Positions 17,802 to 37,267 of a DNA stretch of 64,000 bases are shown in pieces; the stretch's first letter is position 1, and each line of letters opens with the position of its first letter. Origin of the DNA: Linnemannia elongata (lineage: Eukaryota > Mortierellomycota > Mortierellomycetes > Mortierellales > Mortierellaceae); contig JAXBDG010000014.1 of assembly GCA_036320915.1 (NCBI GenBank), forward strand, positions 558,001 through 622,000, read 5' to 3'. A program made the translations under genes and the position numbers. Below the pieces are notes generated by a model, which ran no database searches, was not told the origin of the DNA, and worked only from the letters and a program-made list of their open reading frames with translations.

Positions 17802-18566
17802 ACTGAGTCTTATCCATTTCCCTCAGCGCTTTTGTTCGTTTATTTTTCTTGCCTTGTCTTATCATTTTTGCTTTTTCATTTACTACTACCACCTTAACTC
17901 CCCTACTGTTATTTTTTTGCTACCACCACCTTCTACTTCTACTACATCACAATACTTGTACATAATTCTCAGTGACTACAACCTGTTAAATACACACAGT
18001 CTATGACCCTACAAAGGATGCCGATCCTTGCTAGGAGACTCGTAATGAATTTTTTTTACGACTTTTGAGTGCCCCGTAACTAGAATGAGAAAGGGGCGAA
18101 GATGGAAGAAAGACCTACTGATCACGCGGACGCGACGTGCTAGAGAACCGATCAATACGATCTTTAAAAAAATGCATCAGCTACAAAGTGAAAGTAATTG
18201 GTCTCGTCATTTGTCAGTACCCATCCATGTGGGGTCAAACTGTCTAGAGTTTGCTTTCCCCGTTGAGTAGTCGGGTATCTCTCCGAGATTTAGATGAATG
18301 AAGGCGAGGATGATTGAGTATTTGTTTATTGTTGGTGGGTGTTGTGAATCGTTCACAAAAAGGATTTGCCTATTATTTTTTAATGTATGTATATATATGT
18401 ATTAGTGAAGGGAATAGGCAAAGGAGAAAGGAGACAGGGCTAAGGTTAGTTGCTACCTTGTTTGCCACCTTTGACAGAGACACAAAGGACCTTACAAAAC
18501 GTAAACCTCGAGAACCGTGATGGACCTTGAGGTTTTTAAATACTCCATCTGGGGTTGTCCATAGTC
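17802..18566. other. Intergenic boundary of the accessory island
   Basis: 3' flank of the Harbinger-like gene, then the left edge of the virus-like/LRR island. The outermost island signature recognised is the TTTAAAAAC-type motif at 18531-18542. No gene was seen. Confidence 0.5.
18531..18542 (-). promoter_or_regulatory. TATTTAAAAACC motif, 3' of family copy 1
   Basis: On the minus strand this reads TATTTAAAAACC and then CAAGGTCC. It is a diverged member of the TTTTTAAAAACCTGGATCC-type motif found between virus-like genes, and lies about 25 bases past the stop codon of copy 1. Confidence 0.4.
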
Positions 18567-19961
18567 CTACTCCTTTGGTAGGATACCATGACGGTTCATG
18601 GAGTACAGACAAGTATCCACATAATCCATCCAGTTCGTGATAAATCCACATTCGTCACAGGTATGTGGGCATAAATATGGGTCTATCTCCACCTTGCTCG
18701 GGATGAAGTACATGTATTCCTCCACGATAAGGGGTTGGAATAGATCCTCTGCATCTAAAAGTACCTGGAACCTATCCTGGTCCATGATCCACATGGCATC
18801 TTCAACGGTCCTTGGATAGATCCTCTTGAGACCCTCAAGGGCTCCATTACCATGTACCCTTATCGCCTCCTTTACATGTTCTACCCCGAGATCAGGCGCC
18901 TCTATAAGAAATCCCAACTTGGCCAAATAAGTTACCCACTTCTCACACCCACTGCTGATAAGGTACTCAACCAGGGAGGTATCATTTGGGTTATGGCGGG
19001 CAACAATCGTCGGCCATCTTTCGTTGGGCTTGTTGGGGACATCCATCGTCTGGAGGGCGGCTACAAGTTCGCCGAGATCTAGTTGCCACCGATAGGTAAA
19101 TAGGAACTCCATGTACTCCTCCTCCATGCCATTCCGCTTGAAGAATCCTCCGGCACTAACAAGGATATTCCTGTGTCTGGGTGCCATCCGGGGCTCGTAA
19201 CTGCCGTCCATAAATCTTTGGACCACCTTCTCAGCGAGAGAACCTCGGATGGATGACAGATCTGTCTTGGATAATCTCTCCATGATCTTTTTGTCGGACC
19301 CTCCGTACTTGACATACACGGCAGCAGCAACCTTTACCGGTGCCAGGTCCAAGATGTCCGAGATACATATCTGCCTATCCCGTTCCTCCAGTCTATCCAA
19401 TGCCTCGAGGGCCTGGTCCTTGTCACCACTCAATGCCAACACCTTACACCGGGTTCTCTCATCGCACCAAGAGAGTAGCTCGGATGGATCTCCTTGGATG
19501 CCATAGATCTTCCCACACGGATCTAGGATGGTCCTGTCGAGTCTATCGTACATGCCCTTAAATATGTAATAGGCATTCCGATGTCTTATGGTCTCGTCGA
19601 GGGATGGTTGGATGGTCTCCACAGCATACTCCCAGTCCATCTCTATGGCTATCTTAAGGCCTCCGTCTGAGATGTTGGTGCCCCATATGGTAATGGTCCT
19701 CTCCAGTACTCCTCCGTCCATGGTTACCACGGCTTTATAAATGGCAACATGTGGGGGGACCAGATCCTTGATGGTTGCCAATGCTCTGGGATCACACCCA
19801 CGGGAGAAGATCTCGGAAAGAACCCTCCCAGGTCCACCACTACGGGACATACACTGGCGAATATGTGGCGAGGATAAATCCAACTCCAACACACAACATG
19901 TGTATCCGTCTGCGTAGGAAGCTATCTCCTCAAGTATCTCTTGGGGTATCTTGAGTTCCAT
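18567..19961 (-). CDS. MELKIPQ family copy 1: F-box-like, Cys-rich C-terminal protein of virus-like island, 464 aa
   Basis: Single exon. The N terminus (LKIPQEILEEIASYADGY) resembles a short F-box, as in multigene families of large DNA viruses. About 380 residues of probable helical repeats follow. Near the end is EDAMWIMDQDRF, then a Cys cluster CPHTCDECGF and WMDYVDTCLYSM. It is the most diverged of four paralogues (others at 26249, 28607, 33405), differing along its whole length while its upstream region stays nearly identical to theirs. The ATG follows a leader homologous to LRR-gene leaders; a TATA box lies about 216 bases upstream. No catalytic motif was recognised. A role in ubiquitin-ligase targeting would follow from an F-box, but that is speculation. 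Confidence 0.72.
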   Translation of the reverse strand: MELKIPQEILEEIASYADGYTCCVLELDLSSPHIRQCMSRSGGPGRVLSEIFSRGCDPRALATIKDLVPPHVAIYKAVVTMDGGVLERTITIWGTNISDGGLKIAIEMDWEYAVETIQPSLDETIRHRNAYYIFKGMYDRLDRTILDPCGKIYGIQGDPSELLSWCDERTRCKVLALSGDKDQALEALDRLEERDRQICISDILDLAPVKVAAAVYVKYGGSDKKIMERLSKTDLSSIRGSLAEKVVQRFMDGSYEPRMAPRHRNILVSAGGFFKRNGMEEEYMEFLFTYRWQLDLGELVAALQTMDVPNKPNERWPTIVARHNPNDTSLVEYLISSGCEKWVTYLAKLGFLIEAPDLGVEHVKEAIRVHGNGALEGLKRIYPRTVEDAMWIMDQDRFQVLLDAEDLFQPLIVEEYMYFIPSKVEIDPYLCPHTCDECGFITNWMDYVDTCLYSMNRHGILPKE

Positions 19962-20260
19962 GGGGATGATTTTGGCTGTTCAAAGTAGTCAATGAGGTGG
20001 ATAAGGATATGAAGGATGATAGTCACTATGGGTAATAGCAACAGGGCAAGAGAGTGTGAATGAGGGAATGAGCAAGGGGAAGTAAGATAATAGAGAGACA
20101 AGAAAGAGACAAGAGGACTAGGGGAAAGTGGAAGAGACTAAAAAAGATCCCGATTTATGGTACAGAAAGGGAGGGGTATTTATATTAGTATACAGAAGGG
20201 ATGGAGCAAGTAGAGACTCAGTAGTGAGAGCTGGTAGAAGCATATAGGAAGGTAAAATAG
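19962..20260 (-). promoter_or_regulatory. LRR-type promoter and leader upstream of family copy 1
   Basis: A TATA box, TATAAATA on the minus strand (20177-20184), lies 216 bases before the ATG. The leader contains CCTTCATATC, CATTGACTACTTT and a CT-rich stretch, also seen upstream of the F-box/LRR genes at 31986 and 35975. Nearly the same sequence precedes all four family copies. Confidence 0.7.
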
Positions 20261-20752
20261 AAAACTCTATTACTGCGCCAGTAATCTTATCCATTAATTG
20301 CTTTCAAGTGAGCAAGCATGACACATGGTTATTGTAACTCATACGATTTGGCATTTTCGGTGAAATCCCGGATCCTATTAGCAAAGACCTGGGCTAATTT
20401 CGGTTTCAACTAGCTTGTGGCAGCCAAGCGTTCGTAGCGACATTGCCTTTTGATCCTTTCGATGTTGGATCTTTCAATTCTTCCTTCATTAGAACATACG
20501 AGGTTGCGTTATACGAATTGGCATACTGTAACCAATTCAAGGTATATGGTTTAGATCTGTGCCATGTCTTTGGGAGGAGGGGTATTTAAATAACGTTGTA
20601 GATTTACTAAAGCCTATTGTGCTAGAAAATGAAATGAGTTAATATAAGCAGATAGAACCTTTATGGATAGGAGTCAGCGAGAAAGAAGGTGGAGGATCTT
20701 TTACTTTTATCACTATTGAATAAATATACTCTATCCGTCTTTATCACCCTTG
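20261..20752 (-). repeat. Repeated 3' flank of the LRR gene unit (copy A)
   Basis: A roughly 490-base sequence found after LRR genes or LRR fragments, also at 27941, 30311, 35101 (shortened) and 36431 (partial). This copy has a deletion of about 25 bases and single-base changes that break the 79-codon frame present in the copies at 27980 and 30361. Confidence 0.75.
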
Positions 20753-21421
20753 CTAAGGCACGGACAGTGACTGAATTGGGACGCCCATAATGTTCAGAGT
20801 CGAGTTAGTCTTGAGTGCTTCAGACAGCGCCTCAGCTCCGTTGTCTCCGATCGAGTTGTTGTCCAAGTCCAGAATGGTAAGGGTCGAGTTGGTCTTGAGT
20901 GCCTCAGCCAGCGCAACAGCTCCGTCAGACTCGACCAAGTTGTCATGCAATCGCAAAGTGGTCAGAGTCGAGTTGGTCTTAAGTGCCTCAGACAGCTCCT
21001 GGGCTCCATCGTCCATAATCCAGGTCTCATATAAAGTCAAGGCGGTCAGAGTTGAGTTGTTCTTGAGTGCCTCCACTTCATTGGGTCCGAACGAGTACCC
21101 ATCCAGATTCAAAGTAGTCAGAACCGAGAAGACTATATCGCTAGTAACCACCTTCTCTCGTTCACTTGTTAATGACGAGATTTCATGAACAGTGTCCCGA
21201 ATCTTCAGGTGTTGTATAAGGTGCTTGTTTCTCTCAAGAGATTCCATGCTGAGACCACGTTTTGACAGCACGACAGACTTGTAGAGTGGTGGTGTAAATG
21301 AGCCATTCCAATCCTGACACACACGCGCACAGGACGCGAGGGCGTTAAGGCCAAGACTGTTAGCAATTCTTGACCGAATTTCATGTAGATCGAGGGGATG
21401 TGTTTGGAATATCCTAGTCAT
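20753..21421 (-). CDS. F-box-like NLRC3-type LRR protein (LRR-1), 222 aa
   Basis: ATG at 21421 (MTRIFQTHPLDLHEI). This start was chosen because the same start is kept in LRR-2 and LRR-3, and the upstream frame is leader sequence. Residues about 5-45 are F-box-like (IANSLGLNALASCARVCQDW). From about residue 125 there are three 28-residue ribonuclease-inhibitor-type repeats (ALKTNSTLT..L.L..N..., DGA.AL.E), and the protein ends IQSLSVP. In the paralogue LRR-2 there are nine such repeats. Its promoter is missing: at 21640 the leader is joined to the truncated virus-like gene, so the known TATA element is absent. The gene may be silent. The binding partner is unknown. Confidence 0.72.
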   Translation of the reverse strand: MTRIFQTHPLDLHEIRSRIANSLGLNALASCARVCQDWNGSFTPPLYKSVVLSKRGLSMESLERNKHLIQHLKIRDTVHEISSLTSEREKVVTSDIVFSVLTTLNLDGYSFGPNEVEALKNNSTLTALTLYETWIMDDGAQELSEALKTNSTLTTLRLHDNLVESDGAVALAEALKTNSTLTILDLDNNSIGDNGAEALSEALKTNSTLNIMGVPIQSLSVP

Positions 21422-21639
21422 AAAGAAGACAAGCGTGACAAGAGTGACGGGGTATGATGATGAGAACGGTGATGATGGGACTACAAGAAGGTGCGATAAC
21501 AAAGGGAGAATGAAGAAATTAATGAAGTAAGAACAAACGAAATGAAGAGGATGAATAAGGTGACAGTGGTGTTGTAAAGTAGTCAATGAGGGGATAAAGA
21601 TATGAAGGATGAAAGGCACTATATGTAATATTGCAGGGC
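21422..21639 (-). other. Remnant LRR-1 leader ending at a junction with virus-like DNA
   Basis: The sequence matches the leader of LRR-2 (32,000-32,200) up to GTAATATTGCAGGGCAA at about 21,623-21,639. There LRR-2 continues GAGAGAGTGAAAG, while this copy switches to TCTTGACCTCC, the coding sequence of the 424-codon virus-like gene. Confidence 0.75.
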
Positions 21640-22893
21640 AATCTTGACCTCCCGTTTGTCCTTGAGCATAAGGGGTAACCTGTGACATTCTCTCGTGTAG
21701 TTGCTTGCGAACAGCTCTGGAAGTCTCTCCCTAAGGTCCTCTATCTTGGTCCTGCTGTATATGCGCTCCTTCCTGGGACCTTTGGTGGGAATTTTGGAAG
21801 AACCAGATAGGGTCTTGTACACTCCGCTACATACGGTCTTGTAACTCTCCAGTAGGATTCCAACTATGGCAACTGTACACACAACAGCAAACTCGTTGGG
21901 TGCATTGGACACCACCACGTTCCTGTTACGTATGGTACACTTGGCACCTGTGGAGAGTATGGTTATAGGCAACAACTCTTTCTCCTGCTTAATGTACGGT
22001 AGGGTGTAGTTGACATCTGTGTCTACCTTCATGACATCCTTGAAGGGGCTGTGGTTAGATACGATGTAAGCCATAACCCTACGATGCCATATGCAATCGT
22101 GGGGGAACTGGAGTCTAAGGTTGGTGTCATAGACCTCGTCTACGGAGATATCCGGGTAGCCATATCGGTGGAGTATGTCAAGGGGTACATCCACATCCAC
22201 CATTTCGTCTCCCTTCCTCTGTACCGAGATGGTCCTATCCATGAACATGTAGTCCTTCCCATGGACGTCCTTGATCATGACATACTCGGGTCGGATTGTA
22301 ATAGTTGGCTTGGTGTACTTTCTGTCGAGTTTCTTGGGTGGTAGGGATCTACTAACTTTTCTTCGGATGCCTTTATGGGACACCTCCATGAGAGCTTGGA
22401 AGGATCCTGTAATCTTCTCGAACAACCTGTATATGTCTATTGTAGAGGACAACTCACCCACCATGGTACAAGACTCCATGGTATATTCCGGTATGTCCTC
22501 TATGTCGTGAAGCATCTCGTGCAACCTACGGATGTTCTCCACGTCCTCGTAGTATTCTCTGACGATATTGCCTACCTGGGTGATCATGGTCTTACACTCG
22601 GGGTACTTGTCCAGGTAGCTGTAGTCTATAGTACCAAGAATCCCCATATGTATCATGGCACATCTATGGGCAAGATTTGTGTCAACGACCTTCATGAGAC
22701 CCTTGGCCTTCCGACTGGATTTACCTTGGATGCCCTCGAGAAGGTTCATGCATGAGGTTACCTTCCCAGTGTACTCATCCAGGTCTTCTAGTTCCCGGAA
22801 GGATTTCTCCTCATCCACAAGGTACAGCATCTCGACTGCACATTTGTACTTTGTAGCATATGCTAATATCCTCTTGATCCTATACAAAGACAT
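21619..22893 (-). CDS. Virus-like protein, C-terminally truncated at a junction, 424 aa; possible NCLDV transcription-factor (DUF5757-like) fragment
   Basis: Single exon from ATG 22893. The last six codons (ALQYYI and stop) come from the LRR leader, so the original C terminus was lost at about 21,640. The sequence is rich in charged residues and has no membrane segment. Towards the end it reads LPELFASNYTRECHRLPLML. To the reader this resembles a conserved 'YxRxC...P' motif of large NCLDV proteins related to the early transcription factor large subunit (DUF5757). That link is tentative; its support is position, being directly downstream of an RPB5 gene with 52 bases between. If correct, only part of a roughly 1000-residue protein is present. 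Confidence 0.5.
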   Translation of the reverse strand: MSLYRIKRILAYATKYKCAVEMLYLVDEEKSFRELEDLDEYTGKVTSCMNLLEGIQGKSSRKAKGLMKVVDTNLAHRCAMIHMGILGTIDYSYLDKYPECKTMITQVGNIVREYYEDVENIRRLHEMLHDIEDIPEYTMESCTMVGELSSTIDIYRLFEKITGSFQALMEVSHKGIRRKVSRSLPPKKLDRKYTKPTITIRPEYVMIKDVHGKDYMFMDRTISVQRKGDEMVDVDVPLDILHRYGYPDISVDEVYDTNLRLQFPHDCIWHRRVMAYIVSNHSPFKDVMKVDTDVNYTLPYIKQEKELLPITILSTGAKCTIRNRNVVVSNAPNEFAVVCTVAIVGILLESYKTVCSGVYKTLSGSSKIPTKGPRKERIYSRTKIEDLRERLPELFASNYTRECHRLPLMLKDKREVKIALQYYI

Positions 22894-22940
22894 CTGGTAC
22901 GCGTGTAGGCGGCGGCCCTTGGTTACCCTAAACCAGAATG

Positions 22941-22954
22941 CCGTTTTAAAAAAC
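22941..22954 (-). promoter_or_regulatory. TTTTTTAAAACGG motif between RPB5 and the 424-codon gene
   Basis: The minus strand reads GTTTTTTAAAACGG. It overlaps the RPB5 stop codon and lies about 50 bases before the next ATG (22893). It could be a promoter for the downstream gene, a 3'-end signal, or both. Confidence 0.45.
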
Positions 22955-23464
22955 TAGTCTATAGTACATCTCTCCGGATAGCCTGGTAATACGTATGACA
23001 TCTCCCTTGGTCCATCCCTTCCATCGAACGATAGGGTCCCACGGTGGAATACCTGGGAGTTGCTCCTTGAGTATACTATACCTCTTTAGGATCTCACCTA
23101 CCTCTTCCAGAGTGCACAGTTCGTGGGGTGGTACCATGACGTTGTCCAATGGGCACACCAATAGTTCCTCATGGAAGAAGACCCGGTTGTGTGGGAATCC
23201 ATCCACGTCCCTAAGCTTGTCCATTAAAAGTCTCCAATTGGCAAGGTACAGAATGGCTATGTAGTTGTTGTCCTCTGTGGGTAAGGATCCCAGTACCTGT
23301 TCTACCTGATCCCTGACGGTCTTGTCTGGAGCCACTTGCACCTCGATGAGCCTTGCCGGTTTGTTGGAGTGTCTGGACCCAACATGGTCTGTTCCTCGGG
23401 TTCTAAGGTAGTGGATACACTGGGCAATCTCACGGTGTTGCCATCTGGGTATTCCTGGGTACAT
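22946..23464 (-). CDS. RPB5: Virus-like DNA-directed RNA polymerase subunit RPB5, 172 aa
   Basis: Single exon. The C-terminal half is a clear RPB5 assembly domain: VMVPPHELCTLEEVGEILKRY, then EQLPGIPPWDPIVRW, then KGDVIRITRLSGE and YYRLVF at the end. In RPB5 this pattern is V-P-H, an LL-x-RY helix, QLP-x-I-x-DP-x-RY and G-x-V-x-I-x-R-x-SG. The N-terminal 90 residues fit the shorter, diverged jaw domain. Eukaryotic RPB5 is about 210 residues; NCLDV versions vary and can be shorter. The lack of introns, one-strand packing and neighbours argue for a viral rather than host gene. RPB5 forms part of the lower jaw of RNA polymerase contacting downstream DNA. A TTTTTAAAAA motif lies about 45 bases upstream. 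Confidence 0.85.
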   Translation of the reverse strand: MYPGIPRWQHREIAQCIHYLRTRGTDHVGSRHSNKPARLIEVQVAPDKTVRDQVEQVLGSLPTEDNNYIAILYLANWRLLMDKLRDVDGFPHNRVFFHEELLVCPLDNVMVPPHELCTLEEVGEILKRYSILKEQLPGIPPWDPIVRWKGWTKGDVIRITRLSGEMYYRLVF

Positions 23465-23494
23465 GATGAGAGTTTTAAAACATGGGGTGTCGCG

Positions 23495-23515
23495 GGATCC
23501 AGGTTTTTAAAAAGG
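23495..23515 (-). promoter_or_regulatory. TTTTTAAAAACCTGGATCC motif upstream of RPB5
   Basis: The minus strand reads CCTTTTTAAAAACCTGGATCC, between the 74-codon gene's stop (23525) and the RPB5 ATG (23464). A second, shorter TTTTAAAA palindrome (23473-23480) lies 10-15 bases before the ATG. This is the best-formed member of the motif set. Confidence 0.5.
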
Positions 23516-23524
23516 CCTATCTCA

Positions 23525-23749
23525 CTAGACACATCCAGCTGGGTTGTACATCTCCAGATCTTTCTCGGCGGTAGTACAGTCTCCATCTACGGTCACCACA
23601 ATCTTGGAACTGGTGGAGGTAGGTGAGATATCCCCAATGGATGCGATGTCAGGGACGGCATCTAAGATGTTAACGGATGGGTCAACCACCACGGTAACTT
23701 GGGCGGTCGTAAGGGCAATAAGGATGGATAGGGTCGTAAGGTATTTCAT
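23525..23749 (-). CDS. Small predicted secreted protein of virus-like block, 74 aa
   Basis: It begins MKYLTTLSILIALTTAQVTV, a typical signal peptide with likely cleavage after about residue 16. The mature part is about 58 residues, Val/Ser/Thr-rich, with two cysteines (GDC and AGC near the end) that could pair. No family was recognised. It sits 65 bases after the 779-codon gene and 60 bases before RPB5, same strand. The frame is supported by a clean signal peptide and by fitting the compact gene order. Confidence 0.55.
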   Translation of the reverse strand: MKYLTTLSILIALTTAQVTVVVDPSVNILDAVPDIASIGDISPTSTSSKIVVTVDGDCTTAEKDLEMYNPAGCV

Positions 23750-23814
23750 GTCTGATATCTTTTTGGGTATTATATTTGTCTATCGTAGAGTCCCAAATTC
23801 ATGTAATGGAGGTA

Positions 23815-26154
23815 TTAGATCTTACCTCCCTTGGCGGTGCCTTGCTTGCTGCCAACCCTACCAACGGTCTTCCTACTGGAAGATGGTACCTTGGCAAGTT
23901 GGCCAGCACGGGTGAATGCCGGCTTACCCTGTTGGACTTTCACGGCAATCTTGGTTGGTGCTTGGATGATGTTTCCGGGATCCTCTGTATACTCGGGCAT
24001 GGCATCTATCTTGGCCTTATCCTCTGGGGTAGTGGTCATGCCATCGACGTTCCTGGTCTCCAATGCCCCAGCAACAACCCTATGGAATCCATCGATGGCT
24101 TCGTACTCATCCTTCTCCTGTTTTGTGGTAGTTTCTCCGTTCTTTTCCTTGCTCTGGAGGACCTTGATACGCATCTCGAGGGATCTGGAGTTCTTGGACA
24201 ACATGGCTCTAAGTCTCACCAACTTCCACTTGGGTGTATTAGGGTTCTTGATAAGGTCTCTGGTAACCGTGGCCATGACTCTGTACACCTGAGCATACTC
24301 GTCGGTACCTGGCAGCATGCGAGACACGTCTATACCGGCCTCTTCGCCGTTCTCTATGTCTGGTTGTTTGCCCACGGTTCCAATTGCACCTGTGGTTTCG
24401 GCGAGATCATCCAGAACACCAGACTCGGCAACGGATCCGATATCTTGTGGGTCTCCATACTTGTTACTGTCAAACACAACGTCGACATCTGGTTCTCCTC
24501 CCTCGGCGCCGGTATCTCCTGGTGGATCGTTGGCACCCTTAACATCCCTATACGATGTACCGTAGATACCAAGGAACTTCTTGGCGAGGGTGTTGATGGT
24601 ATTCTTACGAGACTCAGCGGTGATCATCTGGTTACGGAACAGAGACATAACAAGCCTGGTGTCAGCTCTTGCCTTGATCATGGCGATGTTATGTCTGTAG
24701 TCATCCTCGAATGCTCTGATGATACTTGCGGCGAGACCCTTGTCGACTACTTCTGGCTGGTTATCAAGAACAGACGAGAAAGCATCCGTAACCAACCCCC
24801 ATGCAGCATCTTGGTCCTCGGCATCCTCGTGAACATCTCTGGCGCTGATATCACCGGGGCTAAACGGGTCCTCGCTGGGGGTACCACCGTTATCGTTGCG
24901 GAGAATCTTGTTGTTGCCGGTGAAGAACTTAATCATGCGAAGGATCTGTGCCTGACGGTTCAGACGGGCTGCGTTTCCCTTGTCTTTGGCGTTCAGGGAG
25001 TCTCTGTTGAGTACGGTAATCTTGGGAATACATGATCCATCTGCTCTCTTGGCGAGACTGCGTTTGGTAACTGTAACCGAGCATGCAAAGGGTGTGACCT
25101 CGTTCCCTAACTCTGGATTAGGTGCCCTCCAAATAGCAGTACCTAACTTGGTCCACTTGGCAAAGACGTCTGCGTGACCGAGGAGGGTCCTCAGGTCTCT
25201 CTCATGCCCTTCTATGGCCTCCCCAAAGATGTCACGGTACTGGGCGGACAGGTCTAGAGTCACACCTCCAGCTGGCCCAGGTGTTGTAGGGGTAAATTCT
25301 GGGCTAAAGGACCGCATAGTAGCAAGTCTACCCTCAACCATAGTCCTAATGGATCTCTGGAACGTTGCCAACTTGGTGTTTAAGGTATTACGAGTGGCTG
25401 GGTCGGGTAGCCTCTGGATGTACAATCCAACCATCTTTCCGATAGACACGGTGGATCCATCTGCCTCTGTCACGTGTTCCAATTGGCCCCCAGCCACGGC
25501 CTCCATGGCAGGCGAGTCGAAGGTCTGTCCAAGTCTGTCTGCCAGATCCGTGTATTCGTTCCCACCCGCCAAATCGGACGAAAGGGTACCCGAGGGGTTT
25601 GAGAAGAGGGGTACTAGGGGCCAACCCATTCCTGGGGGCCCTTTTCCTTCTCCTGTCCTCCATACCGGCACTCCCTTAAAGTCTCCCGTGACTTTCCCAC
25701 CCGCTTTCCACTTGTACTCCTTGACAAACCCGTTCCGGATACCACCAGCTACAGGTTCCACGAGACTGTGCCCTGTTGGTTGACCATTGGCATCTATCTC
25801 GGGGTATGCGTTCTTGATGGTGTCGACTCTCCCGTCACCGATCAGGACCCTGTTAGGGCCGTTGACACCCGCTGGCCAGACGTTATATCCCCCTCGTACT
25901 CTCGTTGGATCCATCGATGCTAACTTACCAAAATCTGGCAAGAACTCGGACCCGGGAAGTCTGGTCATCCAATACGGGGGATTCGCTCCCGCGGTGGTGC
26001 GGAGTGTTGTTACGAGATCCTTCAGGTCGAAGAACATATCTCTCTCGGCCACGCCATATCTCTGTCCAGCCGGTTCGTCGGTAACAGCATCAGACCAGGT
26101 AGCAGTAACGCGCGTGATAGCTATAGCTGCGTAGATGACAGGTAGTATTCTCAT
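23815..26154 (-). CDS. Large predicted secreted or lumenal protein of virus-like block, 779 aa
   Basis: The start is taken at 26154 because it opens with a signal peptide, MRILPVIYAAIAITRVTATW. The frame is open a further 37 codons upstream, but those overlap the end of family copy 2. The mature protein is hydrophilic, with Gly/Pro/Asn/Asp-rich N-terminal parts (GANPPYWMTRLPG, GEGKGPPGMGWP), a central helical region (about 470-560) and a basic Lys/Gly/Ser tail (SSSRKTVGRVGSKQG). No domain was recognised and no other membrane segment is evident. It is uninterrupted over 2.3 kb, which argues for recent arrival or selection. A long antisense frame (23776-25035) is a shadow. Confidence 0.68.
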   Translation of the reverse strand: MRILPVIYAAIAITRVTATWSDAVTDEPAGQRYGVAERDMFFDLKDLVTTLRTTAGANPPYWMTRLPGSEFLPDFGKLASMDPTRVRGGYNVWPAGVNGPNRVLIGDGRVDTIKNAYPEIDANGQPTGHSLVEPVAGGIRNGFVKEYKWKAGGKVTGDFKGVPVWRTGEGKGPPGMGWPLVPLFSNPSGTLSSDLAGGNEYTDLADRLGQTFDSPAMEAVAGGQLEHVTEADGSTVSIGKMVGLYIQRLPDPATRNTLNTKLATFQRSIRTMVEGRLATMRSFSPEFTPTTPGPAGGVTLDLSAQYRDIFGEAIEGHERDLRTLLGHADVFAKWTKLGTAIWRAPNPELGNEVTPFACSVTVTKRSLAKRADGSCIPKITVLNRDSLNAKDKGNAARLNRQAQILRMIKFFTGNNKILRNDNGGTPSEDPFSPGDISARDVHEDAEDQDAAWGLVTDAFSSVLDNQPEVVDKGLAASIIRAFEDDYRHNIAMIKARADTRLVMSLFRNQMITAESRKNTINTLAKKFLGIYGTSYRDVKGANDPPGDTGAEGGEPDVDVVFDSNKYGDPQDIGSVAESGVLDDLAETTGAIGTVGKQPDIENGEEAGIDVSRMLPGTDEYAQVYRVMATVTRDLIKNPNTPKWKLVRLRAMLSKNSRSLEMRIKVLQSKEKNGETTTKQEKDEYEAIDGFHRVVAGALETRNVDGMTTTPEDKAKIDAMPEYTEDPGNIIQAPTKIAVKVQQGKPAFTRAGQLAKVPSSSRKTVGRVGSKQGTAKGGKI

Positions 26155-26220
26155 GATGTTTGTTATTGGATGTATAGACCATAGTCCGATCGACCCATAT
26201 TCATGACATCCTAGGTACCA

Positions 26221-26234
26221 AGTTTTTAAAAATT
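26221..26234 (-). promoter_or_regulatory. TTTTTAAAAACTTGG motif between family copy 2 and the 779-codon gene
   Basis: The minus strand reads GAATTTTTAAAAACT, followed by TGGTACC and then CATGAATATGGGTCGATC. It is 15 bases past the copy 2 stop and about 67 bases before the 779-codon gene's ATG. The stretch up to GGGTCGATC is shared with the motif region at 28,562-28,602. Confidence 0.5.
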
Positions 26235-28433: not shown

Positions 28434-28541
28434 AAGGTTCGGACAGTGACTGAATTGGGACGCCCATAATGGTCAGAGTCGAGCCGGTCTTGATTGCGTC
28501 GGACAGCGCCTCAGCTCCCTTGTCTCCGATCGAGTTGTAGT
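28434..28541 (-). pseudogene. C-terminal stub of an F-box/LRR gene
   Basis: It encodes only the last 35 or so residues of the LRR family (ending GVPIQSLSEP-like) and is cut at 28,541, where GAGTTGTAGT is joined to virus-like AAATTTATGTAGAC sequence. The same point of LRR-2 continues as AGTACAAGTCC. Confidence 0.7.
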
Positions 28542-28590: not shown

Positions 28591-28602
28591 GTTTTTAAAA
28601 AT
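28591..28602 (-). promoter_or_regulatory. TTTTTAAAAACTCG motif 3' of family copy 3
   Basis: The minus strand reads ATTTTTAAAAAC, then TCGTACGGTGTCATG and GGGTCGATC. It aligns with the copy 2 / 779-codon gene intergenic region, showing that the virus-like DNA here was cut just before the next gene. Confidence 0.5.
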
Positions 28603-29989: not shown

Positions 29990-30310
29990 GGGGATGATTT
30001 TGGCTGTTCAAAGGAGTCGTTGAGGTGGATAAAGATATGAAGGATGATAGTCACTATGGGTAATAGCAACAGGGCAAGAGAGTGTGAAAGAGGGAATGAG
30101 TAAGGGGAAGTGAGATAAGAGAGAGACAAGAGAGAGAAAAGAGAGAGAGAGAAGAGGATTAGGGGAAAGTGGAAGAGACTAGAGAAGATCCTGTCTTATG
30201 GTATAAAAAGAGAGGGGTATTTATATTAGTATACAGAAGGGATAGAGCAAGTAGAGGCTCAGTAGTGAGAGCTGGTAGAGGCATATAGGAAGATAAAATA
30301 GAAAACTCTC
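29990..30310 (-). promoter_or_regulatory. LRR-type promoter and leader upstream of family copy 3
   Basis: TATAAATA on the minus strand at 30218-30225, 229 bases before the ATG. It contains an expanded GAGAGA tract also found at 34,900-34,935, so the copy 3 and copy 4 promoters share a recent origin. Confidence 0.7.
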
Positions 30311-30812
30311 CAGTAATCTTATCCATTAATTGCTTTCAAGTGAGCAAGCATGACACATAGTTATTGCAAATCATACGATTTGACAGTTTCGGTGAAATCC
30401 CATTCTTTCAGAGCAGTATTCGCCGTATGGATCCTATTAGCAGAGACCTGGGCTAATTTCGGTTTTAACTGGCTTTTGGCAGCCATGCGTTCATAGCGAC
30501 GTTGCCTTTTTGATCCTTTCGATGTTGGCTCTTTCAATCCTTCCTTCATTAGAACATTCGAGGTTGTGTTATACGAATTGGCACACTGTAACCATTTCAA
30601 GGTATATGATTTAGATCTGTGCCATGTCTTTGGGAGGAGGGGTATTTAAATAACGTTGTAGATTTACTAAAGCCTATTGTGCTAGAAAATGAAATGAGTT
30701 AATATAAGCAGATAGAACCTTTATGGATAGGAGTCAGCGAGAAAGAAGGCGGAGGATCTTTTACTTTTATCGCTATTGAATAAATATACTCTATCCGTCT
30801 TTATCACCCTTG
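30311..30812 (-). repeat. Repeated 3' flank of the LRR gene unit (copy C)
   Basis: The 3' flank of LRR-2, near-identical to 27,941-28,433, with the 79-codon frame intact at 30361-30600. Confidence 0.75.
30361..30600 (-). CDS. Conserved 79-codon frame in the LRR 3' flank repeat, second copy (uncertain)
   Basis: Same product as 27980-28219 except for one residue in the ERMAAKSQ stretch. Conservation of the frame between copies may reflect recent duplication of the whole repeat rather than selection. Confidence 0.25.
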   Translation of the reverse strand: MKWLQCANSYNTTSNVLMKEGLKEPTSKGSKRQRRYERMAAKSQLKPKLAQVSANRIHTANTALKEWDFTETVKSYDLQ

Positions 30813-31985
30813 CTAAGGCTCGGACAGTGACTGAATTGGGACGCCCATAATGGTCAGAGTCGAGCCGGTCTTGATTGCGTCGGACAGCGCCTCAGCTCCG
30901 TTGTCTCCGATCGAGTTGTAGTACAAGTCCAAAGTGGTCAGAGTCGAGTTGGTCTTGAGTGCATCAGCCAGTGCCTGAGCTCCGTAGTCTCCGATCGAAT
31001 TTTCTACCAAGAACAACATGGCCATTGTCGAGTTAGTCTTGAGTGCTTCAGACAGCGCCTCAGCTCCGTTGTCTCCGATCGAGTTGTTGTCCAAGTCCAA
31101 AGTGGTCAGAGTCGAGTTGGTCTTGAGTGCATCAGCCAGTGCCTGAGCTCCGTAGTCTCCGATCGAATTTTCTACCAAGAACAACATGGCCATTGTCGAG
31201 TTAGTCTTGAGTCCTTCAGACAGCGCCTCAGCTCCGTTGTCTCCGATCGAGTTGTTGTCCAAGTCCAGAGTGGTAAGGGTCGAGTTGGTCTTGAGTGCCT
31301 CAGACAGGGCCAGAGCTCCGTTCTCTCCGATCGAGTTTTCGTACAAGACTAGAGTGGTGAGGGTCGAGTTGGTCTTGAGTGCCTCAGCCAGCGCAACAGC
31401 TCCGTCGTCTCTGATCGAGTTGTTGTATAAGTCCAGAGTGGTAAGGGTCGAGTTGGCCTTGAGTGCCTCAGCCAGCGCAACAGCTCCGTCAGACTCGACC
31501 AAATTGTCATGCAATCGCAAAGTGGTCAGAGTCGAGTTGGTCTTAAGTGCCTCAGACAGCTCCTGGGCTCCATCGTCCATAATCCAGGTCTCATATAAAG
31601 TCAAGGCGGTCAGAGTTGAGTTGGTCTTGAGTGCCTCCACTTCATTGGGTCCGAACGAGTACCCTTCCAGATCCAAAGTAGTCAGAACCGAGAAGACTAT
31701 ATCGCTAGTAACCACCTTCTCTCGTTCACTTGTTAATGACGAGATTTCATGAACAGTGTCCCGAATCTTCAGGTGTTGTATAAGGTGCTTGTTTCTCTCA
31801 AGAGATTCCATGCTGAGACCACGTTTTGACAGCACGACAGACTTGTAGAGTGGTGGTGTAAATGAGCTACTCCAATCCTGACACACACGCGCACAGGACG
31901 CGAGGTCTTTAAGGCCGAGACTGTTAGCAATTCTTGACCGAATCTCATGTAGATCGAGGGGATGTGTTTGGGGTATCCTAGTCAT
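30813..31985 (-). CDS. F-box-like NLRC3-type LRR protein (LRR-2), 390 aa
   Basis: ATG at 31985 (MTRIPQTHPLDLHEI). F-box-like residues about 15-45, then a linker, then nine 28-residue ribonuclease-inhibitor/NLRC3-type repeats of pattern ALKTNSTLTTLxLxxN.IGDNGAEALSE, ending IQSLSEP. Repeats 5-6 and 7-8 form a duplicated 56-residue pair, so the array grew by unequal exchange. This is the one complete unit: TATA promoter, leader, intact frame and 3' flank. F-box/LRR proteins typically serve as substrate receptors of SCF ubiquitin ligases; the substrate is unknown. The frame extends upstream to 32306, but that part is leader sequence shared with other copies. Confidence 0.78.
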   Translation of the reverse strand: MTRIPQTHPLDLHEIRSRIANSLGLKDLASCARVCQDWSSSFTPPLYKSVVLSKRGLSMESLERNKHLIQHLKIRDTVHEISSLTSEREKVVTSDIVFSVLTTLDLEGYSFGPNEVEALKTNSTLTALTLYETWIMDDGAQELSEALKTNSTLTTLRLHDNLVESDGAVALAEALKANSTLTTLDLYNNSIRDDGAVALAEALKTNSTLTTLVLYENSIGENGALALSEALKTNSTLTTLDLDNNSIGDNGAEALSEGLKTNSTMAMLFLVENSIGDYGAQALADALKTNSTLTTLDLDNNSIGDNGAEALSEALKTNSTMAMLFLVENSIGDYGAQALADALKTNSTLTTLDLYYNSIGDNGAEALSDAIKTGSTLTIMGVPIQSLSEP

Positions 31986-32430
31986 AAAGAATACAAACGT
32001 GACAAGAGTGACGGGGAATGATGATGAGAACGGTGATGATGGGGCTACAAGAAGGTGCGATGACAAAGGGAGAATGAAGAAATTAATGAAGTAAGAACAA
32101 ACGAAATGAAGAGGGTGAATAAGGTGATAGTGATGTTGTAAAGTAGTTAATGAGGGGATAAAGATATGAAGGATGAAAGGCACTATATGTAATATTGCAG
32201 GGCAAGAGAGAGTGAAAGAGGGAATGAGCAAGAGGAAGAGAGATAAGAGAGAGACAAGAGGACTAGGGGAAGTGGAAGAGAAGAGACAGGAAAAGATCCC
32301 GTACAAAAAGAGAGGGGTATTTATACTAGTATACAGAATAGTTGGAGCAAAGTAGAGGCGCAGTAGTGGGAGCTGTTAGAGGCATATAGGAAAGCGAAAC
32401 AGGACATTCTTTGCCACTACGCCACTAACC
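31986..32430 (-). promoter_or_regulatory. Promoter and leader of LRR-2
   Basis: TATAAATA on the minus strand at 32318-32325, 333 bases before the ATG. This full version shows which parts were kept at the family copies (TATA box to GACTACTTT) and which were lost (the 110 or so bases nearest the LRR ATG). Confidence 0.65.
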
Positions 32431-32540
32431 TTATCCATTAATCAGAAACTGCATGGATAGGAGTCAGCGAGAAAGAAGGCGGAGAATCTTACTGTCTTCG
32501 CTATTGAATCAATATACTCTCTTCGTCTCCACCGCCCTTG

Positions 32541-32752
32541 CTAAGGCACGGACAGTAACTGAATTGGGACGCCCATAATGGTCAGAGTCGAGCCGGCCTT
32601 GATTGCGTCGGACAGCGCCTCAGCTCCGTTGTTTCCGATCGAGTTGTAGTTCAAGTCCAAAATCTCAAGAGTCGAGTTGGTCTTGAGTGCCTCCACTTCG
32701 TGGAGTTCGAGCGAGTACCCATCCAGGATCAAAGTAGTCAGAACCGAATAGG
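32541..32752 (-). pseudogene. F-box/LRR gene fragment, 5' truncated
   Basis: It encodes the last 70 or so residues of the LRR family with a single repeat (ALKTNSTLEILDLNYNSIG) and the usual tail GVPIQLLSVP. It breaks off upstream at about 32,752 in the VLTTL segment, next to a possible solo LTR. Confidence 0.65.
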
Positions 32753-33366
32753 TGTTGTATCACAGTAAAAATGAATAAAAGAGTGATTGAGGTGTTTATA
32801 TGTGTAGATGTGAAAAGGATGGAAGCTGGACAGAAACATATGTTCTTTATTTTCTATCCGTCTGCGCTTTTATAGACACCTCTCTTCACGTGAGTAAACA
32901 TGTAGCTGCTGCGACTAACAACTGCTAAACATCTCACATATGTTGTGCACGTACACAACAGGAGTGATGACACAAAGGGGAGAAGGGGAACTGTTGAGTG
33001 AGAGCTCTAAGAGGACGAGTGTGCAGAGAGTGAAAAGAAAGATGAATACCCAATACAAAGAGGACATTCGAGGGAAGTAGATATGTTTTAATGACGACTT
33101 TATGAGAGAAAGGGAAAACGAAGTGAAGAACTGTCTAAGGCTAAGCTAGCTATCTTATAGGGAACTGGGAGCTAAAGATGATAGATCTTCTATGCTAAGA
33201 GTCATATCTATGGTGTCAGAAAGGTCAGGAATGGTTGCTACTTGAGAGCGATGGGCTACTTAAGATAGATGGGAGTCGGCGTCGAAGGTGAGCACGACGA
33301 CCTACGAGATCCCAGCGAGAGCATCAAAGTGGTGGCTTAGGAAGTGCCAAACGCTGCAGCGCAACA
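32753..33366. mobile_element. Possible solo LTR (614 bases)
   Basis: The segment begins TGTTG and ends CAACA, the usual short inverted ends of LTRs. It contains TATA-like sequence (CTTTTATAGACACC) and no coding frame. It exactly fills the gap between the broken LRR fragment and the virus-like motif. The flanking five bases (ATAGG and TCTAC) do not match, so there is no target duplication, as expected if it marks a rearrangement or if the call is wrong. Confidence 0.3.
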
Positions 33367-33381
33367 TCTACTCCAAATCCA

Positions 33382-33394
33382 GGTTTTTAAAAAC
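33382..33394 (-). promoter_or_regulatory. TTTTTAAAAACCTGGATTTGG motif 3' of family copy 4
   Basis: The minus strand reads GTTTTTAAAAACCTGGATTTGG, 10-20 bases past the copy 4 stop. It is very close to the RPB5 upstream motif. Confidence 0.5.
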
Positions 33395-33404
33395 TTGGTA
33401 GATG

Positions 33405-34772
33405 TTAACCCTGGGAATGCATGGAGTACAAGCAGGTATCCACGTAGTCTATCCACGGTGGAATAAGTCCACAGCTGTTACAGAGGTATGGGCAGTTGTA
33501 TGGGTCCACTTCCATCTCCGTGGGAATGTAGTATACATGGTCATACACGGTAAGAGGTATGTATACTACATCCGGTGTCTCTACACGGAACCGTGGGTGA
33601 TGCATAATCCACATGGCATCCTCGACAGTTCTTGGAAAGATTTTCCCGATGATCTCGTCAAGGACTCCTTCTCCACGTACCCTCATCGTCGCTCTTACGT
33701 GATCGACCCCATAGTCGGTCTGGTAGTTTCCTGCTATATCATGCCCTTCTCTTGCAAGACGTAGGACTGTCTTTCCGTACCCATTGCTAATAAGCTCATC
33801 AACCGGAAGGGGCCTGTTGAACTGGTCCAAGTACCCAAAGAGTTGCCTCCATCCTGCATTGTACACGTTAGAGATATCCACGGCCTGAAAGATGGAGAAA
33901 ATATCTACTTCATGCAAATGTCCTGCAAGATACGTGATGAACCTACTCTCCATACCGTTCTTCACCAGGAACCCACCCGCCCCCACAAGCAGATGCATGT
34001 ACTTTCGCGGGGGATCCTCATCGTGGTCTATGAACATCTGTATGACTCTCGCAGTCATGGTACCCTCGATGGGTGATAGGTCCACTAGTCTCTCCATGAT
34101 CTTGTGGGTAAAAGATTCGTACTTGGTGTACACGATGGTAGCTACCTCCATTGGGGCCAACTCCAAGATATAGGGTATACATGTATCTCTGTCTCGTCCA
34201 AGGTCATCCAAGGTCTCCAAGACCCGGTCTCCTTGACCAACAAAAGCCAGCATCTTGCATAGGGTTACCCCATTACACCAAGGAAGTAGCAGAGATGGAT
34301 CTCCACCAACACCATAGACCATTCCACATGGATCCTCGATTGTCCTGTCGAGCTTATCGTACATCCCCTTGGAGATGTAATATGCATTCCGATGTCTTAT
34401 GGTCTTGTCAAGGGATGGCTTGATGATCTCCACAGCATATCCAAAGTCCATCTCTATGGCCAACTTAAGACCACCGTCTGATATGTTGGTGCCGTACATG
34501 GTAATGGTCTTGTCCACTACTTCGTCGTCCATGGTTACCACGGCTTTGGCAATGGCGGCGTGAGAAGGAACCAGATCGCGGATAGTCGCCATTGCTCTGG
34601 GGTCACACCCATGAGAGAGGATCTCGGAAAGCACTCTCCCGGGTCCACCACTCTGGGACATACACTGGCGAATACGTGGTGATGATAGATCTAGACCTAA
34701 CACACAACAGACGTAACCGTTGGTGTAGGATACTATTTCCTCAAGTATCTCTTGGGGTATCTTGAGTTCCAT
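33405..34772 (-). CDS. MELKIPQ family copy 4, 455 aa
   Basis: Single exon. Residues about 1-380 are almost identical to copy 2, with scattered changes (for example SHGCD for SRGCD). The last 70 or so residues differ and retain the cluster CPYLCNSCGL and WIDYVDTCLYSM. Its upstream region is instead most like that of copy 3, so the gene is a mosaic. F-box-like start and helical body as in the other copies. The frame is intact with no stops, and a TATA box lies 228 bases upstream. Confidence 0.72.
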   Translation of the reverse strand: MELKIPQEILEEIVSYTNGYVCCVLGLDLSSPRIRQCMSQSGGPGRVLSEILSHGCDPRAMATIRDLVPSHAAIAKAVVTMDDEVVDKTITMYGTNISDGGLKLAIEMDFGYAVEIIKPSLDKTIRHRNAYYISKGMYDKLDRTIEDPCGMVYGVGGDPSLLLPWCNGVTLCKMLAFVGQGDRVLETLDDLGRDRDTCIPYILELAPMEVATIVYTKYESFTHKIMERLVDLSPIEGTMTARVIQMFIDHDEDPPRKYMHLLVGAGGFLVKNGMESRFITYLAGHLHEVDIFSIFQAVDISNVYNAGWRQLFGYLDQFNRPLPVDELISNGYGKTVLRLAREGHDIAGNYQTDYGVDHVRATMRVRGEGVLDEIIGKIFPRTVEDAMWIMHHPRFRVETPDVVYIPLTVYDHVYYIPTEMEVDPYNCPYLCNSCGLIPPWIDYVDTCLYSMHSQG

Positions 34773-35100
34773 GGGGATGATTTTGGCTGTTCAAAGGAGT
34801 CGTTGAGGTGGATAAAGATATGAAGGATGATAGTCACTATGGGTAATAGCAACAGGGCAAGAGAGTGTGAAAGAGGGAATGAGTAAGGGGAAGTGAGATA
34901 AGAGAGAGACAAGAGAGAGAAAAGAGAGAGAGAGAAGAGGATTAGGGAAAGTGGAAGAGACTAGAAAAGATCCCGTCTTATGGTACAAAAAGAGAGGGGT
35001 ATTTATATTAGTATACAGAAGGGATGGCAAGTAGAGGTGCAGTAGTGAGAGCTGGTAGAGGCAGAAAGGAAGGTAAAATAGAAAACTTTATTACTGCGCC
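34773..35100 (-). promoter_or_regulatory. LRR-type promoter and leader upstream of family copy 4
   Basis: TATAAATA on the minus strand at 35000-35007. It shares with the copy 3 promoter the CAAAGGAGTCGTTGAGG variant and the expanded GAGAGA tract. Confidence 0.7.
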
Positions 35101-35389
35101 ACTAATCTTAACCATTACTTGCTTTCAAGTGAGCAAGCATGACACATAGTCATTGCAATTCATACGATTTGGCATTTTCAGTGAAATCATTCATTCAGAG
35201 CAGTATTCGCGGTTGAGTATTTAAGCAACGTTATAGATACTACCAAAAGCTTATTATGCTAGAAAATGGAATGAGTTAATATGAGCAGACAGAAGCTTTG
35301 TGGATAGGAGTCAGCGAGAAAGAAGGTGGAGGATCTTTTACACTTATCGCTATTGAATAAATATACTCTATCCGTCTTTATCACCCTTG
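35101..35389 (-). repeat. Shortened 3' flank of the LRR gene unit (copy D)
   Basis: It keeps both ends of the flank repeat but has lost about 200 internal bases, including the 79-codon frame. Confidence 0.65.
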
Positions 35390-35974
35390 CTAAGGCTCGG
35401 ACAGAAACTGGGATGCGACGTCCATATATGTCAGAGTTGAGTTGGTCTTGACTGCGTCAGACAGCGTAACAACTCCGTTTTCTCCAATCAAGTTGCTGTG
35501 CAAGTCCAGGGAGGTAAGAGTTGAGTTGATCTTGATTGCATCGGACAGCGCCTGAGCTCCGTTGTCTCCGATCGGGTTGTATCTCAATTCCAAAACCACA
35601 AGTGTCGAGTTGATCTTGAGTGCCTCCACTTCATTGGGTCCGAACGAGTACCCATCCAGGATCAAAGTGGTCAGAACCGAGTAGGCTATATCGCTAGTAA
35701 CCACCTTATCTCGTTCACTTGTTAATGATATAATTTCATAGGTAGTACTCCGAATCTTCAGGTGTCGTATAAGGTGCTTATTTCTCTCAAGAGATTCCAT
35801 GCTGAGACCACGTTTTGACAGCACGACAGACTTGTAGAGTGGTGGTGTAAATGAGCCATTCCAATCCTGACTCACACGCGCACAGGACGCGAGGTCTTTA
35901 AGGCCAAGACTTTTAGCAATTCTTGACCGAATCTCACGTATATCGAGGGGATGTGTTCGGGATATCCTATTCAT
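35390..35974 (-). CDS. F-box-like NLRC3-type LRR protein (LRR-3), 194 aa
   Basis: ATG at 35974 (MNRISRTHPLDIREI). F-box-like region IAKSLGLKDLASCARVSQDW, then two full repeats (ALKINSTLVVLELRYNPIG, AIKINSTLTSLDLHSNLIG) and a C-terminal half repeat. It is the most diverged of the LRR copies. It is short, and its upstream TATA position reads TACAAATA, so expression by the same promoter is doubtful. Confidence 0.7.
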   Translation of the reverse strand: MNRISRTHPLDIREIRSRIAKSLGLKDLASCARVSQDWNGSFTPPLYKSVVLSKRGLSMESLERNKHLIRHLKIRSTTYEIISLTSERDKVVTSDIAYSVLTTLILDGYSFGPNEVEALKINSTLVVLELRYNPIGDNGAQALSDAIKINSTLTSLDLHSNLIGENGVVTLSDAVKTNSTLTYMDVASQFLSEP

Positions 35975-36430
35975 AAAGAAGACAAGCGTGACAAGAGTGA
36001 CGGGGAATGATGGTGAGAACGGTGATGATGGGGATACAAGAAGGTGTGATAACAAAGGGGGAATGAGGAAATAAAATAAATAAGAAGAAGCGCAATGAAG
36101 AGGATGAATAAAGCGACAGGGGTGATATAAAGTAGTCAATTAGGTGGATAAAAATATTAAAGATGAAAAGCACTATATGTAATATTGCAGGGCAAGAGAG
36201 AGTGAATGAGGGAATGGGCAAGAGGAAGAGAGGTAAGAGAGAGACAAGAGAGTGACAAGAGGTTTAGGGTTAAGTGGAAGAGACTAGAAATAATCTCGAT
36301 TTATGGTACAGAAAGGGAGGGGTATTTGTACCAGTATGCAAAAGGGTTGGAGAGGTAGCAAGTAGAGGCGCAGTAGCGGGAGCTGATAGAGGCATAGGAA
36401 GGCGAACAGAACATTCATTACCACTCTGAC
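35975..36430 (-). promoter_or_regulatory. Promoter and leader of LRR-3 with altered TATA box
   Basis: Same layout as the LRR-2 promoter, but the minus-strand TATAAATA is TACAAATA (36323-36330). Confidence 0.55.
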
Positions 36431-36640
36431 ACTAATCTTATCCATTAATTGCTTTCAAGTGAGCAAGCATGACACATAGTTATTGCAACTCATACGATTT
36501 GACATTTTCGGTGAAATCCCATTCTTTCAGAGCAGTATTCGCCGTATGGATCCTATCAGCAGAGACCTAGGCCAATGTTGGTTTTAACTAGCTTGTGGCG
36601 CCAAGCGTTCGCAGCAAAGTTGCCTTTGATCCTTCGATGT
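36431..36640 (-). repeat. Partial 3' flank of a further LRR unit (copy E), right edge of the island
   Basis: It matches the first 200 or so bases of the flank repeat (GCTTTCAAGTGAGCAAGCATG onward) and then stops near 36,650 in unrelated AT-rich sequence. No LRR gene follows, so the array was cut here. Confidence 0.65.
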
Positions 36641-37267
36641 CGCTTCTTTCTATCATATTGCGCTTGTATTATTACCACCTATTTATTTTACAGGGAAGTG
36701 GCTGAGTCATCTTAGAGCAGGGGAAGAAGGAGATAGTTTTGTTGCTGGCTAAGTGTATAATTAGAGCTGATTACAGTATTTTGGTGCAAAGGAAATCGAG
36801 AGATAAGAAGTTGGGGTTGCTCAACGATAATTGGGCAAGATCAAAAAAATGGCGGGCGGTATGACAGAGGCTGAAGCCTAAGGTTCAAGGGCCGGTCTGG
36901 GGCCAGGTACCAGTGGTCATGGTAACAAAAGAGCTACCTAAATAGTGATAGGCGGTTGTTCGGACGCGTGTGTATCTAGGGAACGGGTGATAAATCTAGC
37001 ACCGGCGCATTAAATATTCAAACCTAATTGGAGCAGTTCTTGGCAGACGCTGTGATCGCCGAGCAAAAGATTATTGAGTTGGGCAAAAGCACTCTCGACT
37101 TCCTCGTCAACATGCAAATTCCGAGAAGTGGTCCTATCGATACCAGCAGTTGGACCGATGACATCAAGACATCGACAATCGTAGGCATGGAGACAATAGA
37201 ATTGAACAAGGGTTCTGTCTTGAAGGTGACAGCTTTATTCGTTTTAATGCTAATTAGAAACTGCGAT
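36641..37267. other. Intergenic region right of the island
   Basis: It contains an 88-codon plus-strand frame (37028-37294), part of which (residues 1-65) has protein-like composition (FLADAVIAEQKIIELGKSTL). It has no recognised family and overlaps the ABC gene end. It may be a fragment of a lost gene. Confidence 0.35.

Follow-up and report, generated by a model that had tools for sequence, protein, structure and literature searches.

The window analysed here is the whole 64,000-nt stretch of DNA, and all positions are given in its numbering. At about 18-37 kb it contains an island that repeats itself far beyond chance, with best self-matches of 83-96% over 0.8-1.8 kb (E 0). Genes of the MELKIPQ family (hereafter M) and LRR genes are named by their lower window coordinate, and C4, C19, C22, C23 and C30 denote contigs of the genome. 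All features below lie on the minus strand except TTTTTAAAAA, which is listed without strand.

36129 to 36654: LRR promoter and leader, unit 1, containing TACAAATA
35390 to 36139 (ORF-list limits): LRR35390, F-box/LRR gene, F-box part recognised by motif
34793 to 35213: LRR-type promoter and leader of M33405, unit 2
33405 to 34772: M33405, M family, 455 aa, matching M26249 until about nt 1060, with a different tail beyond
33384 to 33393: TTTTTAAAAA past the M33405 stop
32753 to 33358: two dispersed repeats, 33358-32960 (6 other copies) and 32960-32753 (about 25 other matches; TGTTG...CAACA ends by eye, solo-LTR-like)
32541 to 32752: LRR 3' fragment, 70 residues
32140 to 32442: LRR promoter and leader, unit 3
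30813 to 32306 (ORF-list limits): LRR30813, F-box/LRR gene; leader makes up the upstream portion of its frame
30010 to 30539: LRR-type promoter and leader of M28607, unit 4
28607 to 29989: M28607, 460 aa, with a body of its own beyond about nt 340
28592 to 28601: TTTTTAAAAA past the M28607 stop
28434 to 28541: LRR stub, 35 residues, fused to about 66 nt of the virus-like 3' flank of M28607
27631 to 28158: LRR-type promoter and leader of M26249, unit 5
26249 to 27610: M26249, 453 aa, at the head of the virus-like block
26223 to 26232: TTTTTAAAAA past the M26249 stop
23815 to 26154: 779-aa ORF (816 aa if the earlier ATG at 26265 is used), hydrophobic N-terminus; its sole genome match is itself
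23525 to 23749: 74-aa ORF, hydrophobic N-terminus
23504 to 23513: TTTTTAAAAA separating the 74-aa ORF from RPB5
22946 to 23464: RPB5-like ORF, 172 aa, intronless
21642 to 22893: ORF ending in DUF5757 positions 1-26 of 96 (match under cut-off), truncated at an LRR leader
20753 to 21641: LRR20753, keeping the last part of the leader, without promoter
19982 to 20478: LRR-type promoter and leader of M18567, unit 6
18567 to 19961: M18567, 464 aa, close to other M genes only in the leader and first ~35 nt; ATTTAAAAA past the stop

The stub, the 70-residue fragment and the promoterless LRR gene described by the sequence-only reading were all recovered at these positions; upstream of the 70-residue fragment lie the two dispersed repeats, with no viral flank there. 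The segment 17900-18600, at the island's end, is single copy by search. A DDE_Tnp_4 gene adjoins the island.

That reading had also held that the four minus-strand M genes carry an LRR promoter and leader whose homology ends about 20 nt before the ATG, and alignment bears this out. Through TATAAATA, the four M upstream regions match those of LRR30813 and LRR35390; the match then breaks at the same point, 20 nt before the M ATG. At the break, M18567 and M26249 have the motif GACTACTTT, M28607 and M33405 the motif GACTCCTTT; the 20 nt that follow it, together with the ATG, are identical in all four M genes. From TATAAATA to the M ATG the distance is 223-236 nt. This stretch is ATG-free in 4/4 genes, which we dismissed as evidence because shuffled sequences yield the same 21-33% of the time. 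Outside the window, 37 leader matches were listed and all 24 of those examined precede LRR frames; in a tree, the M leaders form one clade (100/99) that is sister to the LRR leaders of the window (100/99). With LRR frames behind every outside match examined, and the M leaders grouped as a single clade among those of LRR genes, alignment and phylogeny assign the promoter and leader of the M genes to the host F-box/LRR family. M genes carrying this promoter without LRR genes, a case set beforehand as contrary evidence, were not seen in this genome. As members of the host F-box/LRR family, LRR30813 and LRR20753 are clear in their LRR part and only weakly so in their F-box part; profile search of LRR30813 gave 112.8 bits for LRR_6, above cut-off, and 20.3 bits for F-box-like, below the cut-off of 24.3.

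M26249 adjoins an RPB5-bearing block (21.6-27.6 kb), the final ORF of which breaks off at an LRR leader. The earlier description of this block as NCLDV-like is supported by its compact ORFs beside M26249 and by the RPB5 C-terminal domain of the RPB5-like ORF (58.3 bits, cut-off 23.5). The host's own RPB5, on C4, is a split gene that aligns to this ORF over 36 aa at 56%; judged by profile score, missing intron and short alignment, the ORF appears to be a virus-type transcription gene distinct from the host's RPB5. RPB5 is a cellular gene too, which counts against a viral reading. The DUF5757 match, to a family that we take to be viral, scored 21.5 bits against a cut-off of 25 and covers profile positions 1-26 of 96. 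The ORFs of the block are compact and co-directional, separated by gaps of 94, 65, 60 and 52 nt, and share an intergenic signal: TTTTTAAAAA occurs 5 times in the window versus 0.12 expected, with 4 of those in the island, and follows 4 of 5 close M genes as well as the 74-aa ORF. A search of the genome with PF04451 (major capsid protein) gave no match, and control genomes gave none either. About 66 nt of leader on each side of the viral piece were considered as a target-site duplication and rejected; an insertion inside one leader is not proven, because the flanking copies belong to different leader types.

The M family is also present on C30 and at C19, C22 and C23. On C30, in the region 1,229-1,236 kb and outside the window, a 738-aa open frame carries a GTPase domain fused in frame to M; its M part is 90.7% identical to M26249, with homology running about 103 nt beyond the stop and reaching the start of the 779-aa ORF. 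On C23, in the region 2,947-2,961 kb and also outside the window, a distant M copy without TTTTTAAAAA after its stop is joined to a duplicate of the 5' end of the BCS1-like gene beside it; the BCS1_N profile match is under cut-off. This duplication, of at least 1.2 kb (1,199 bp matched at 97%), ends at 2958117, and M homology starts at 2958118. Both other M lineages found are thus, as read from their junctions, also provided with host 5' ends.

Could M instead be an old host gene family that takes up or donates exons, with the virus-like block merely having landed next to one copy? The presence of M at three kinds of host locus agrees with this view, as do five IMG/VR scans of viral contigs, which found no relative of M or of the RPB5-like, DUF5757-like or 779-aa ORFs. 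Against it, M and the block share the TTTTTAAAAA end, M is packed compactly with the block, and the C30 copy keeps virus-like downstream sequence as far as the ATG of the next ORF. We therefore regard an old host family as unlikely and the viral origin of M as probable, not proven.

The sequence-only reading proposed that viral DNA entered an LRR array, that a viral gene gained the host promoter, and that this one fusion was then simply copied. The leader matches and the tree support a host source for the promoter and leader, and the M genes do adjoin a virus-like block, whereas simple copying is not supported, given mosaic divergence. In six pairs, M leaders differ by 2.9-7.5% and gene bodies by 32-66% at fourfold sites (Fisher p from 9e-5 to 3e-31; the cut points were picked after viewing the alignment), and homology breaks at three distinct points in the M genes, at about +35, +340 and +1060. 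By contrast, native LRR control pairs gave similar values, 0.23-0.34 for leaders and 0.12-0.38 for fourfold sites (29 pairs). Of 14 control genes, 12 have an F-box motif (all except L022 and L024), and these 12 form 66 pairs; 37 passed a 60% identity filter, and six LRR20753 pairs (this stretch includes viral sequence), LRR30813-LRR35390 and L036-L037 were left out. Among the pairs left out, L036-L037 is near-identical (0.00 and 0.06), and LRR30813-LRR35390 shows a mismatch in the opposite direction (leader 0.18, fourfold 0.04), probably reflecting conversion in the F-box part. With bodies far more diverged than leaders, and native LRR pairs similar in both, the alignments argue that recombination joined a cassette of leader and M start to three or more diverged M bodies.

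A single gain of the LRR promoter, followed by duplication of the entire fusion along the array and later mutation, would fit the single M-leader clade and the 95.7% identity of M26249 and M33405 across most of the gene, which does indicate that some plain duplication occurred. Yet this scenario has little chance of being right, given the excess divergence of bodies in 6/6 pairs, the abrupt shifts in divergence and native LRR leaders that are not slow. If the virus had earlier acquired the LRR leader and brought the leader-M fusion along, the one leader-M junction common to four copies would be explained; however, in the tree this leader has as its sister group the leaders of the same array that holds M, and the units concerned are bordered by LRR 3' ends, which makes this history very improbable. 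Assembly error is hardly credible, even though array units are up to 95% identical and C19 and C22 resemble duplicate contig ends of C23, for the units are not alike in sequence or breakpoints, reading frames run uninterrupted through the junctions, and M with host 5' ends occurs on other contigs too.

We consider the following history likely: a host F-box/LRR array received a viral piece, a cassette recombined among copies, and two other 5' ends were gained separately. Part of the genome of a large DNA virus would have entered the tandem array at or inside an LRR 5' leader; the LRR promoter would thereby have passed to the leading M gene of this piece, leaving the LRR gene behind the piece without one. 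Exchange between copies, by unequal crossing-over or gene conversion, would then have carried the cassette (LRR promoter, leader, M start and the opening 35 to 1060 nt of M) to three or more diverged M bodies, with LRR genes nearby being trimmed to varied lengths. Two other M lineages would have gained host 5' ends separately, by the GTPase frame fusion on C30 and the BCS1-like 5' duplication on C23. The M genes of the island may be transcribed from the LRR promoter, and a BCS1-M transcript may be spliced at an 83-nt intron; any function is likewise presumptive.

As to the M protein, Pfam search up to E 1 gave no match for M26249 or M33405, and an F-box at the M N-terminus, proposed by eye from xPxEILExI, could not be supported. 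The structure model is of low confidence; Foldseek returned no match at E 0.001 and weak rows to giant-virus ankyrin and F-box proteins. All five close M copies keep an open frame. The dN/dS ratio (NG86) is about 0.17-0.23 in the N-terminal part, versus 0.64 (M26249/C30) and 0.33 (M26249/M33405) in the C-terminal part; with values up to about 0.6 in one comparison, constraint there may be weak. Much of the M divergence may be older than the capture.

In exon shuffling and promoter capture, one gene supplies the 5' part and another the body, for example through duplication of a neighbour's 5' end. Compared with promoter capture in general, each of the three lineages found in this one genome has a virus-like family on the receiving side, with the join at or near the start codon. 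Large-DNA-virus sequence within a fungal chromosome has a counterpart in the fungus Rhizophagus irregularis, where an endogenous Nucleocytoviricota region runs for 1.5 Mb continuously; unlike that region, the piece here measures about 6 kb and sits within an array of host genes, where viral-type genes carry host promoters, and the passages on promoter and expression in that report describe silencing by compaction, not promoter gain (PMC10640383). Giant-virus insertions of Phytophthora parasitica, as described in the relevant passages, include virus RNA polymerase genes, most of them silent and one truncated copy expressed; a Harbinger element lies beside it, as the DDE_Tnp_4 gene does beside the island here, and those passages identify no promoter for the expressed copy, whereas the promoter in the present case can be assigned to a family of host genes (PMC8204020). 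The dynamic, chimeric viral insertions of Acanthamoeba likewise include partial copies, duplicated and recombined at 85-95% identity; the passages describing them mention neither host promoters nor host exons attached to viral genes, and 'promoter' occurs 0 times in the main text (PMC12210455). Among the titles and abstract openings listed in a literature search, none describes these fusions, which does not prove their absence from print.

It is possible, though we put it forward only tentatively, that in this one genome a virus-derived module was recruited on at least three separate occasions to form the body or the C-terminal portion of host-type genes (after an F-box/LRR promoter, a GTPase domain and a BCS1-like exon), joined at or near the start codon, with C-terminal halves still being exchanged between copies. 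Such a module might serve host defence as a recognition or decoy component of viral origin. How viral genes that lack promoters readable by the host turn into host genes is rarely visible at the level of the junction; here one genome contains several junctions, and donor relatives are still adjacent (the array LRR genes and the BCS1-like neighbour), and the steps can therefore be read base by base. The 5' ends of three kinds of host gene in front of a probably viral family represent one way in which viral DNA might become host genes, and the findings suggest that recombination can spread a captured promoter over diverged viral paralogues, a route besides the duplication of one fusion.

In the 51-Mb, 32-contig genome, where the window corresponds to C6:558001-622000, the island comprises six minus-strand units running from 36,654 down to 18,567, in which a shared LRR-type promoter and leader precedes either a host F-box/LRR gene or a member of the MELKIPQ family (M), of probable large-DNA-virus origin; genes are named by their lower window coordinate.

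Unit 1, minus strand: leader and LRR35390
Unit 2, minus strand: leader, M33405, two dispersed repeats, LRR 3' fragment
Unit 3, minus strand: leader and LRR30813
Unit 4, minus strand: leader, M28607, LRR stub
Unit 5, minus strand: leader, M26249, virus-like block, then LRR20753 without promoter
Unit 6, minus strand: leader and M18567
Block in unit 5, same strand, in order after M26249: 779-aa ORF, 74-aa ORF, RPB5 homologue, partial-DUF5757 ORF

This layout confirms the leader-plus-gene units described in the sequence-only reading, including the end of leader homology just before the M genes: it stops at GACT(A/C)CTTT, and the ATG follows after 20 identical nt. The two dispersed repeats of unit 2 (window 32753-33358) meet at 32960; the second contains a TATA box, is bounded by TGTTG...CAACA, and is possibly a solo LTR to which the LRR fragment is joined. 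Adjoining the island, an 830-aa ORF (15309-17801) carries a DDE_Tnp_4 domain (46.4 bits), which is of interest because a Harbinger element adjoins an expressed viral gene in Phytophthora, according to an excerpt of PMC8204020.

Searching with the leader produced 44 matches, 7 inside the window and 37 outside; this count is a lower bound, and in places several matches belong to a single locus. At all 24 outside loci examined among these 37 matches, an LRR frame, detected by motif, lies within 1.5 kb downstream on the same strand. Among 30 leaders placed in a tree, those of the four M genes form one clade (100/99) whose sister is the leaders of LRR30813 and LRR35390 (100/99), the whole group being nested among LRR leaders. 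Judged by homology and phylogeny, the leader on the M genes is the host's, as had been proposed. The F-box/LRR query returned at least 284 frame matches across the genome, hence a very large family. LRR30813 and LRR35390 differ by 0.18 in the leader and 0.04 at fourfold sites, and the F-box parts of the window LRR genes look converted.

The six pairs of M leaders differ by only 2.9-7.5%, whereas the bodies beyond the breakpoints differ at 32-66% of fourfold sites, with cut points picked after the alignment had been seen. M18567 is near-identical to the other M genes over the leader and ~35 nt of CDS only, M28607 tracks M26249 for ~340 nt, and M33405 does so for ~1060 nt before a different tail; the shifts in divergence are abrupt. 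LRR leaders are not unusually slow, since 29 native LRR pairs showed leader differences of 0.23-0.34 and fourfold differences of 0.12-0.38. Taken together, these comparisons indicate that one leader-plus-start cassette sits on at least three diverged M bodies. The proposal that one viral gene gained the LRR promoter and the fusion was then copied along the array is thus too simple: the common cassette stands, but the bodies are too diverged.

That interpretation is also incomplete, because M has been joined in a similar way to two further host genes. On C30, a single open frame of 738 aa (1231059-1233275) encodes a GTPase part (MMR_HSR1, 44.7 bits; C1 carries three weaker matches, at 35-38%) and then M, which starts at M codon 8 and shares 90.7% DNA identity with M26249. 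This homology extends ~103 nt beyond the stop, as far as the 779-aa ORF start, so the copy was taken with its virus-like flank in the same order. The dS between the two M sequences is 0.51 in the first half and 0.07 in the second, an additional sign of exchange.

On C23, an M relative (31% to M26249; equal-scoring matches on C19 and C22) is preceded by a 97% duplicate, the source of which is the 5' portion of a BCS1-like gene ~9 kb upstream. The duplicate spans at least 1,199 bp, a lower limit as the compared stretch began there, and runs up to 2958117, with M homology from 2958118. Splicing of its 83-nt intron would connect the exon to M in frame. The BCS1 label draws on a BCS1_N match of 17.3 bits (under cut-off), a BCS1 lid domain above cut-off in the neighbouring ORF, and paralogous exons (94% and 71%). 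The ends of C19 and C22 carry similar copies of the region (C23:2948000-2959500).

M26249 does adjoin a block with an RPB5 homologue (58.3 bits), as had been noted, with intergenic gaps from M26249 through the block of 94, 65, 60 and 52 nt. Host RPB5, on C4, is split and alignable with it over 36 aa. The DUF5757 match in the last ORF (21.5 bits, under cut-off) ends at profile position 26/96, from where LRR leader sequence continues. Five copies of the motif TTTTTAAAAA lie in the window versus 0.12 expected (5 reached in 0/100 shuffles): after M26249, M28607, M33405 and the 74-aa ORF, and one outside the island (52805-52814, shortly before an ORF end at 52826). M18567 has ATTTAAAAA at the equivalent place and the C23 copy lacks TTTTTAAAAA there; the C30 copy has it, directly after M, as the sole occurrence in 108 kb of other loci. 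By its sequence the block is virus-like; five IMG/VR scans returned no virus relatives, which counts against a firm viral label. Searches for a capsid gene and a further DUF5757 match found none, their controls being silent as well.

With the GTPase fusion and the BCS1-like join besides the LRR leaders, all three M lineages found in a single-protein search (8 matches) have host 5' ends; they are not an unbiased sample, as promoterless copies may be lost or missed. Excerpts of PMC10640383, PMC8204020 and PMC12210455 do not describe the spread of a host promoter across paralogous viral genes. All five close M copies are open frames, and dN/dS is ~0.2 in the N-part and 0.33-0.64 in the C-part (two close pairs), which makes the evidence of selection mixed. 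Neither M26249 nor M33405 matches any Pfam family at E values up to 1. The M28607 structure model (mean pLDDT 58) has helical repeats at 157-400 and an N-terminus not resolved in the model; our guess is that the M protein has a putative binding or scaffold role.
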